From contig JARGNG010000004.1 in assembly GCA_029213265.1 (NCBI GenBank), positions 1 to 64,000 on the forward strand: a stretch of DNA of 64,000 nucleotides, read 5' to 3'. The stretch's first letter is position 1; the number at the start of each line of letters is the position of its first letter. Below are positions 28,479 through 31,402 of this stretch, piece by piece. The notes under the pieces were generated by a model. It worked only from the letters and a program-made list of their open reading frames with translations. It did no database searches and was not told the origin of the DNA. This DNA is from Verrucomicrobiales bacterium. GTDB taxonomy: Bacteria; Verrucomicrobiota; Verrucomicrobiia; Verrucomicrobiales; DEV007. Position numbers and translations under genes: made by a program.

Positions 28479-30110
28479 TCACTCAGCAGCTTCCCGAATC
28501 AAGACCTCAACTTTCCGGAGAATGACTCCGTGATCATCATCCCCGGCCCGATATCCGGATCGAACAACCTTGGTGACCTCACCGGGCTGATACGGCTGCT
28601 CGATGTATTCGCGAGTGCCCCAACCTTTCTTTCCCAGAATCTGTACTTCCCGTCGTTGCTTCAGTGTGAGCATTGTTCCTACGGGAACGTCATACTCATG
28701 AACTCCCTGATCGCTGAGAATGCGGACGAGTTTTTTGCGGAAGCTCTCCAATTCAGGGAGAGCTTCTTTCATTTTCCGGTTTCGGCGATATCCGGTCAGA
28801 AGCTGATCATAAAATTCGAGTTCGGTGATCAGCTCCGCGTAAATTTCCTGTTCCCGGTCCTTGGCAATGACCATGGATTCGTACCGTTCCGGAATCGCGA
28901 CCTCCGTACCGCGACGGCTGAGGCCCTGGGCACGGCGGACGGCCTCGTCCACTTCCTTCCGGACTTCGGCGAGATCGGAGGTGGTCGCCTCCAGTTCCTT
29001 TTTCCGGTTCCGGTTTTCTTCGACCAGATCACGCTGCTCCTGTTTCAATTCGTTGCAGCGTCTCTGCAATTCCTCCTGCACCCCGTCCCCGAATTTATGC
29101 CAGATCGGTTCGATTCGGTCCAACTCCGCACGAATCTTCAGGCGCGCCATCTCAATCCGTGCCAGATCGCTGTCATCCCCTGCCGAAACCACATTTTCGA
29201 GACTTTCGGGATCAAGCCAGTCTTTCCAGTCGGAGAGAATTGCTCCGCTCATGTCCCGAACTTTTCCGAGGAGGGAATTCAGTCGCTCCTGGAGTGCGGC
29301 GGTCTCCTGCCGGCTCGCTGCCAATTCGGCGTCCCGCACTCCGAGCGTTTCCTGGAGCTGTCCATGAGCGAGCTGCCACTCGTCGCGCTCGGATGCGAAT
29401 TGCGAACGCTGCGCTTCGGTGGTGGAAATGATTCCGTCGCGACGGGTCACCTCAAACTGCAGAGAGGCGATCTGCCCTTCCCGCTCGAGATTACCCTCCC
29501 GTTCCTGGCTCAACTCACGGGAAATCTTCTCGATCCTAGCTTCAGCATCCGCGACATCCCGGGATCGCCGTTCGAGATCGCGCGAGACCGAATCGATTTG
29601 CGTCGACTTCTCCTCCAACTGCTTTCGAACCCGCTCCAGTTCGATTTGCGTCTCCGCCTGTGAACTCTGCGCGAGGTCCCGCTCGTTTGCCAAGGCATCG
29701 ACCTTCGACTGCCAGACCTGCTCTACCTCTTCGGTTGATTGCCTATCAGCAACCGGGATCTGCCCGGTATGATCATCGAGATCCTGAACGTGATCCGGCA
29801 TCACCTCTGCTTCGATGACTCGAAACTCCGAACTGGCAAACCTCACCAAGTCATTTGCTGACAACTCTTCCCGTTCGATTTTTCTACCATTTACAAACGT
29901 TCCGTTGCTGGAATCACAATCAACCAAATTCACCCCGTTCACCCCCGACGACTCCAGCTTGGCATGAAGACTGGATACGGAAATATCGTCCACACAGAGA
30001 TCGTTTGCGCCGGATCTCCCCACCGTATACGAGCCCGGACCCGTCGGAATGGGAAATGACTTTCCGCCGGCGGTCGAAGGGCCGGAAAGAGGTTGTAGGA
30101 AAAGCGGCAT
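28479..30110 (-). CDS. FHA domain, long coiled coil and C-terminal GrpE-like region
   Basis: FHA: YTVGRSGANDLCVDDISVSSLHAKLE...VNLVDCDSSNGTFVNGRKI; coiled coil; C-terminus GVHEYDVPVGTMLTLKQRREVQIL...QPGEVTKVVRSGYRAGDDDHGVILRKVEVLI resembles the GrpE beta domain. Confidence 0.88.
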   Translation of the reverse strand: MPLFLQPLSGPSTAGGKSFPIPTGPGSYTVGRSGANDLCVDDISVSSLHAKLESSGVNGVNLVDCDSSNGTFVNGRKIEREELSANDLVRFASSEFRVIEAEVMPDHVQDLDDHTGQIPVADRQSTEEVEQVWQSKVDALANERDLAQSSQAETQIELERVRKQLEEKSTQIDSVSRDLERRSRDVADAEARIEKISRELSQEREGNLEREGQIASLQFEVTRRDGIISTTEAQRSQFASERDEWQLAHGQLQETLGVRDAELAASRQETAALQERLNSLLGKVRDMSGAILSDWKDWLDPESLENVVSAGDDSDLARIEMARLKIRAELDRIEPIWHKFGDGVQEELQRRCNELKQEQRDLVEENRNRKKELEATTSDLAEVRKEVDEAVRRAQGLSRRGTEVAIPERYESMVIAKDREQEIYAELITELEFYDQLLTGYRRNRKMKEALPELESFRKKLVRILSDQGVHEYDVPVGTMLTLKQRREVQILGKKGWGTREYIEQPYQPGEVTKVVRSGYRAGDDDHGVILRKVEVLIREAAE

Positions 30111-30244
30111 ACTACAGTGCTGATTTCGCATCGGATTGAACCCGCTTCAACGCCAATTTTTCCGTATATAGTTTCATTTTCTATAGCAGGAATCCGGAGC
30201 AAGGTCACGAAATCGAAACTCGCGAAAACAGAAGGTAGTCGATC

Positions 30245-31402
30245 ATGCCGAATCGCCCCTCCTACTTCGCCGCCATTCTGGCGGTTCTATTTTCGCTCTC
30301 CCATGATTCGGCAAACGCAATCATCAACGGTAGCGATCCGGAAGAGAACGAATTTCCATGGATCGCGACGATCGTAAAAAAGGGCAATTTCTCTACGGTT
30401 CCTGTGATCGGAGGCGGAGCACTCCTTGGAGACCAGTGGATTGTAACGACGGCCCACAGCCTCGTTGATGAATCGCCCGCCACCCTTGAAGTCTGGCTTC
30501 AGGCGCCGGATCTGACGGACCTTTCCCGGCGAATTCGCAGAAACATTCTCGCTATCCACCGTCACCCCGACTTCGTCACGACCAACGGAACCAGTCTCAA
30601 TGATGTAGCCATGCTCCTTCTGGACCAGCCGGTCAGCTCCCTTGATCCGGTTCCTTTCGAAACTTCTGAGGATGATTTTTTCGAAATGGATGCGGTGCTT
30701 ACCGCCGGCTGGGGTACGATCGTTCCCGGAGAACCTGCTCCCTCAACTCAACTACAAAAAGCCGGTCTGGAACTGCTGACCCGCGGTGATGCCAATGCAT
30801 TTTACGGAGGCATACTCACGATAGCCCACATTCCCGCGAGAGATCCGCTCGCTCTTTCCATGCCCTGCTTTGGAGACAGCGGAGGGCCCCTCCTCAAAGA
30901 GATCAACGGAGTGGATACCCTGATTGGGCTGGTCAGCTTCGGCCCTTCCGATTGCGACGACCCCTCGATTCCCTCGATCTTCACCAACATCACTGCCTAC
31001 GATGAGTGGATTCAGGATCTCCTCGATGAGACCGCCATCCCCCCCGATATCGGGATTACCGGGAAAGGTCGAAACATTTCGAACGGCGACCGCTCGTCCC
31101 GTTCTGCGGACAACACCGACTTCGGAACATTCCCCACGCGCAGAAGGATAGTCACCAAAGCATTTCGTGCAGAAAATCGAGGGCCCGGACTGCTAACGAT
31201 TCGGGGCGTCACGACATCAGGAAGACTCTTTTCCGTTCGCTCGACACCGGCGAAACTCCTCGCCGCGAGCAGTTCATCGAAGTTTCGCATCCGCTTTCGA
31301 TCTCCCCGCAACCGAAAGCGCGCCCACTCCACCGTGAAGCTTTTCACGAACGACCCGGATGACCCTGTGGTGACCTTCCGGGTAAAGGCGACCGTTCGCT
31401 AG
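30245..31402 (+). CDS. trypsin-like S1 serine protease with C-terminal choice-of-anchor-D-like domain
   Basis: IINGSDPEENEFPW; VTTAHSL; NDVAMLLLD; SMPCFGDSGGPLL; C-terminal PDIGITGKGRNISNGDRSSRSADNTDFGTF...FRAENRGPGLLTIRGV. Confidence 0.92.
   Translation: MPNRPSYFAAILAVLFSLSHDSANAIINGSDPEENEFPWIATIVKKGNFSTVPVIGGGALLGDQWIVTTAHSLVDESPATLEVWLQAPDLTDLSRRIRRNILAIHRHPDFVTTNGTSLNDVAMLLLDQPVSSLDPVPFETSEDDFFEMDAVLTAGWGTIVPGEPAPSTQLQKAGLELLTRGDANAFYGGILTIAHIPARDPLALSMPCFGDSGGPLLKEINGVDTLIGLVSFGPSDCDDPSIPSIFTNITAYDEWIQDLLDETAIPPDIGITGKGRNISNGDRSSRSADNTDFGTFPTRRRIVTKAFRAENRGPGLLTIRGVTTSGRLFSVRSTPAKLLAASSSSKFRIRFRSPRNRKRAHSTVKLFTNDPDDPVVTFRVKATVR

Follow-up and report, generated by a model that had tools for sequence, protein, structure and literature searches.

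The 543-residue protein described here is a short paralogue within an apparently undescribed family in which an FHA domain is joined, through a long coiled coil, to a tail that is, by profile comparison and in its predicted fold, homologous to GrpE. GrpE (PF01025) is the bacterial nucleotide-exchange factor of DnaK, a helper of Hsp70, and is normally a stand-alone housekeeping factor. From its sequence and modelled structure, we consider the protein to be probably a diverged, phosphothreonine-targeted adaptor of GrpE fold that still docks on an Hsp70. Its gene lies in a 64,000-nucleotide stretch of a Verrucomicrobiales metagenome-assembled genome (hereafter the window; Table 1). A full-text search of the open-access literature returned no description of an FHA-GrpE fusion, and one published elsewhere is possible.

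Table 1. Positions of the features discussed in the text. Unless a contig is given, coordinates are those of the window.
Feature	Coordinates	Strand	Residues or size	Basis or remark
Whole gene, FHA - coiled coil - GrpE-like	28479..30110	-	543 aa	Verrucomicrobiales MAG
FHA domain	29811..30110	-	aa 1-100	Pfam match and pocket conservation
First coiled-coil helix	29229..29708	-	aa 135-294	AlphaFold helix, pLDDT about 90-97 over most
Second coiled-coil helix	28920..29171	-	aa 314-397	AlphaFold
Neck (VRRAQGLSRRGTEVAIPERYESMVIAKDRE)	28851..28946	-	aa 389-420	AlphaFold, conservation and E. coli GrpE mapping
Two short helices	28710..28862	-	aa 417-443 and 450-467	Equivalent to the dimer-forming helices of GrpE
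GrpE-like beta domain (KGWGTREY, QPGEVTKVVRSGYR, VILRKVEVLI)	28491..28706	-	aa 469-540	
P0002	27610..28467	-	285 aa	Co-directional, downstream of the window gene
Operon of the long paralogue (L033)	G000:C12:2577-9458		1662, 499 and 90 aa	Long FHA-coiled-coil-GrpE, lidless Hsp70 and 90-aa protein

The open reading frame starts at the ATG at position 30110 (MPLFLQPL), M1 being nearly invariant among 17 orthologues; a further in-frame ATG upstream, at 30131, lacks such conservation. The head of the protein matches PF00498 over residues 28-91 (E = 1.7e-15), and the residues that form the phosphothreonine pocket of the FHA fold are kept in the orthologues, namely R32 (15/17), S46 (17/17), H49, S67, N69 (15/17) and N74. 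Twelve Hanks-kinase matches were found in the source genome. The divergent neighbour of the gene (30245-31402) encodes a trypsin-like protease (PF00089, E = 1.4e-30) whose C-terminus carries a DUF1573/HYDIN-type Ig-like domain, scoring below the curated cut-offs.

The AlphaFold prediction, made on the 17 orthologues, consists of an FHA sandwich, the two coiled-coil helices, a break, a pair of short helices and a C-terminal region made up entirely of beta structure. The break is a low-confidence stretch within the neck (residues 400-415) that is predicted to be disordered, and the neck itself lies where canonical GrpE carries its DnaK-binding NxRxR helix. Mean pairwise identity within the short subfamily is highest in the neck (74%), followed by the beta domain (61%), the FHA domain (46%) and the coiled coil (25-42%), with residues 101-295 the least conserved part (25%). 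That the neck and beta domain are conserved above the FHA domain and coiled coil points towards a role in binding a partner, beyond simply ending the chain.

Searched alone against Pfam, the window protein yields its FHA domain and no GrpE match, and it is the family collectively that fits the GrpE profile; among the 17 short orthologues, 11 match PF01025 (best 4e-9), as do 17 of the 18 long paralogues described below (best 1.6e-8). A blind GrpE HMM search of 57 whole genomes retrieved a canonical GrpE from almost all of them, together with the FHA-GrpE family, several members of which exceed the curated cut-off. The same search also returned a few other divergent GrpE-like proteins from related taxonomic families, at G060:C46, G074:C183, G079:C12 and G073:C365 (open frames of some 270-360 codons; E about 1e-12 to 1e-13). 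When profiles were compared with that of canonical GrpE, the short tails gave E = 7e-6 and the long ones 1.4e-6, and for the whole family hhalign gave E = 2.1e-8 at a probability of 95%; the helical but unrelated neighbour P0002, used as a negative control, gave E = 0.49 and 0.1%. When the tail model (pLDDT 84) was compared by Foldseek with 350,542 PDB chains, the only matches with E<1 were eight GrpE or GrpEL1 chains (E 3e-4 to 0.17, probability 0.96-1.00, TM-score 0.45-0.57, identity 14-21%). The helices followed by a small beta domain that characterize the GrpE fold are thus present in the model, with a Foldseek probability to GrpE reaching 1.00. A viral origin of the fold was also considered and set aside, as BFVD gave no significant match. 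A first-pass annotation of the sequence had read a canonical FHA fold at the N-terminus, a long coiled coil after it and a GrpE layout in the tail; the PF00498 match and retained pocket residues, the predicted helices and, for the tail, the three independent routes of Pfam on the relatives, hhalign and Foldseek bear out this reading. Neither of the outcomes named there as refuting it, a C-terminus without a significant match to GrpE or a predicted structure without the GrpE beta domain, was observed.

Retention of the fold has not extended to the surface that GrpE presents to DnaK. In E. coli GrpE, individual residues have roles in DnaK contact. With the contact regions taken from PMC10803776 and family residues mapped onto E. 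coli GrpE by alignment, the fold residues L95, G177, Y178, R186 and V190 are kept in both subfamilies; at P97, G122, D150, A156 and R183, substitution is universal or almost so in each of the two. N71, R73 and R75 of the long-helix NxRxR motif have no counterpart in either subfamily, within a region that falls in an alignment gap, so that the exact pairing of residues there is uncertain. The conserved DnaK-contacting residues of GrpE (the NxRxR helix, R183 and the G122 region) are therefore lost or replaced, and nucleotide-exchange activity cannot be assumed. The invariant residues of RKxEV, RxGY and KGWG, together with the neck, make up a candidate remodelled surface.

Of 34 sampled genomes of the genus, 24 have the short gene. 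Searching with the window protein uncovered, on contig C12 of its own genome, a second and much longer FHA-coiled-coil-GrpE protein, which is also present across the order. The source genome encodes four family members, the other two being a third FHA-coiled-coil-GrpE gene on contig C120 (G000:C120, L133:5843-8291) and a protein on contig C23 (G000:C23, L134:6802-7371). The former is interrupted by an assembly N-gap and has no Hsp70 neighbour, and its tail clusters with the one from G032, a genome in which the Hsp70 has been lost from beside the long gene; the latter, of 189 residues, consists of an N-terminal hydrophobic, transmembrane-like segment and a GrpE-like domain. Many members of the genus have stand-alone GrpE-like copies of this last type, encoded in open frames of some 180-220 codons. 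In the tree, the whole family stands apart from canonical GrpE with support of 100/100, the branch between them being about 3.5 changes per site long; the short genes cluster with only moderate support (79/62), opposite the long genes. Members occur in several families of the order Verrucomicrobiales, and in samples comprising 188 genomes from the class and 289 from the phylum the matches are confined to the order, bar one weak one.

It is the long paralogue that supports an Hsp70 link for the family. Directly downstream of it lies a gene for a 499-residue Hsp70 (PF00012, E = 5.9e-100), followed in most long loci by the 90-residue protein, which has no known family; a CysS-like gene lies upstream of the C12 operon on the opposite strand. 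Of 20 long loci examined, 18 have this lidless Hsp70 directly after the long gene. At one of the exceptions (L044, in G032) it has been lost from its syntenic place, and at the other the long gene reaches the end of the examined sequence, its downstream side being outside view. This Hsp70 has intact ATP-site motifs and an aligned substrate-binding beta region, and it has no alpha lid and a degenerate VLLL linker. About 26 residues of its nucleotide-binding domain are missing around E. coli positions 80-110, the loop after residue 280 is shortened, and the IB surface, the site at which DnaK contacts the beta domain of GrpE, is altered. Asn56 and Thr60 of M. tuberculosis DnaK are listed as GrpE contacts (PMC10803776); in the operonic Hsp70s aligned, the matching positions, mapped via the E. 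coli alignment, are Asp and deleted, respectively. An Hsp70 altered at its GrpE-facing site fits a co-evolved pair. Among genomes of the genus at least 90% complete, 14 have both the long gene and the lidless Hsp70, one the long gene only, one the Hsp70 only and eight neither (Fisher p = 1e-4, phylogeny ignored). G032, with the long gene and no Hsp70, and G021, with the reverse, indicate that the pairing is not obligatory. From adjacency and co-occurrence, the operonic lidless Hsp70 is very probably the partner of the long paralogue. PADLOC matches, considered as signs of a conflict or defence system, look like coiled-coil noise only, and that candidate was rejected.

For the window gene, the Hsp70 link is weaker than for the long paralogue, given that the contact residues are lost and that the short gene occurs without the lidless Hsp70. 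No Hsp70 gene lies beside it, and the short gene and the lidless Hsp70 show no association in co-occurrence (12/6/3/3, p = 0.63). Fifteen of the 24 genomes with the short gene have the lidless Hsp70, and six genomes at least 90% complete carry the short gene without it. Strict dependence on the lidless Hsp70 was rejected on the counter-examples G010, G020, G023, G031, G032, G033 and G021. A DnaK-type Hsp70 of ordinary length is encoded in the source genome and across the genus, and the source genome also encodes a separate canonical GrpE. The window protein may partner with the lidless Hsp70 or with a DnaK, or it may act on no Hsp70. The first-pass annotation had suggested a phospho-regulated Hsp70 cofactor and a look for orphan DnaK-like genes near orthologues. 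The long paralogue does have such an orphan Hsp70 gene directly after it, in the source genome as elsewhere, though the window gene has none beside it; the cofactor idea is thus well motivated for the family by the long loci and unproven for the window member.

What does accompany the short gene is P0002, encoded 11 bases downstream of it and adjacent in 18 of 19 short-gene loci tested. Its N-terminal hydrophobic segment resembles a signal peptide, making it putatively exported; the region that follows has no Pfam or NCBIfam match, and carries an invariant GTT..FV..DLP..LFP, and the protein has a conserved C-terminal FRMSSKQ motif. The conserved stretch WGTT..FV..DLP bears a superficial likeness to KGWG, which is invariant in the beta domain of the FHA-GrpE protein (KGWGTREY). 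P0002 is retained where the FHA-GrpE gene is gone, as well as in other genera, indicating that it does not depend on that gene, and an exclusive partnership between the two was rejected on these grounds. Upstream of P0002 in G011 (L180:2048-2341) is a short remnant ORF ending in FIIRKVEV, apparently a decayed FHA-GrpE gene.

Our preferred explanation in full, to which we give close to evenly balanced credence, is that the FHA domain docks on a phosphorylated target and the GrpE-like tail binds the nucleotide-binding domain of an Hsp70. The GrpE-type helices, modelled here as single chains, would dimerise two chains into a two-headed rod, and the heads would dock on a target phosphorylated on threonine by one of the Hanks-type kinases of the genome. 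The tail may then bind the Hsp70, whether the lidless one or ordinary DnaK, through the candidate surface of RKxEV, RxGY, KGWG and the neck. In this way, the phosphorylated site could serve to anchor Hsp70 action or to gate it. A broader and more speculative proposal, possible but on balance doubtful, is a dedicated, phosphorylation-gated module in Verrucomicrobiales, made up of a lidless Hsp70 whose linker is non-standard, an FHA-headed GrpE-like rod (of up to about 1800 aa) and a small third protein, and acting as a signalling switch or assembly factor and not as a general folding chaperone, with the window gene supplying a related rod at another target.

The explanation that most nearly competes with docking on an Hsp70 is that the tail is a GrpE-derived module for dimerisation and docking that has ceased to act on any Hsp70. 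The short protein would then be a phospho-dependent scaffold, with its conserved neck and beta domain engaging some other partner, which may be linked to P0002. We regard this as a real possibility, although not a probable one. The lost DnaK-contact residues, the six near-complete genomes with the short gene and no lidless Hsp70, the constant adjacency to P0002 and the fact that the most conserved part of the protein is a neck motif specific to the short subfamily all speak for such a scaffold. Against it, the operons of the long sister family encode an Hsp70, which is what a GrpE fold would be expected to partner, and P0002 is itself a doubtful partner, since it alone bears an export-like segment and it persists where the FHA gene is gone. 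That the protein is instead a conventional exchange factor of the housekeeping DnaK, which happens to bear an FHA head, would agree with its fold and topology and with the ordinary-length DnaK-type Hsp70 of the genome and genus. This is improbable, as the genome already has its own canonical GrpE, the NxRxR helix, G122 and R183 are lost, and the branch to canonical GrpE is long. Convergence of a coiled coil and a small beta domain, with no kinship to GrpE, is in turn very unlikely. The window sequence singly lacks a Pfam GrpE match and the identity of the fold matches is low, but the profile and fold matches run through the beta domain and not the helices alone, no other PDB fold was matched with E<1, and the sister family is again found with Hsp70; convergence was therefore rejected.

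If docking on a phosphorylated target and on an Hsp70 is true, the combination of a GrpE fold, a phosphothreonine reader and a non-canonical operonic Hsp70 would constitute a direct route from Ser/Thr kinase to Hsp70 in bacteria. The long protein and the lidless Hsp70 provide a concrete, testable couple of orthogonal chaperone and cochaperone.

Compared with GrpE and mitochondrial GrpEL1, the family shares the layout of a long helix, two short helices and a C-terminal beta domain, as well as G177-Y178, R186 and V190 (E. coli numbering). It differs in its N-terminal FHA domain, its far longer coiled coil and broken neck, in lacking NxRxR, P97, G122, D150, A156 and R183, and in having gained RKxEV and, in the short form, KGWG. 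The operonic Hsp70 has the ATP-binding motifs and beta substrate-binding region of DnaK/HscA-type Hsp70s, but not their lid; its linker is degenerate (VLLL), residues of its nucleotide-binding domain are lost and its IB surface is changed. With FHA phosphothreonine readers such as GarA/OdhI and Rv1747, the window protein has the R, S, H and N pocket residues in common, yet it carries no enzyme or transporter domain, its FHA being joined to a GrpE-like tail. The nearest published idea, in the part of the source considered here, is that of the GAP1-N2 GTPase conflict systems, in which Hsp70 is likewise encoded with GrpE and in some cases lacks the peptide-binding domain (PMC7159879); an FHA-GrpE fusion is not described in that part, and GTPase, FNIII and vWA genes were not recognised beside the Hsp70 operons of our family. 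The component parts are of known kinds; what looks new is that they are fused, and that the long form is paired with a lidless Hsp70.
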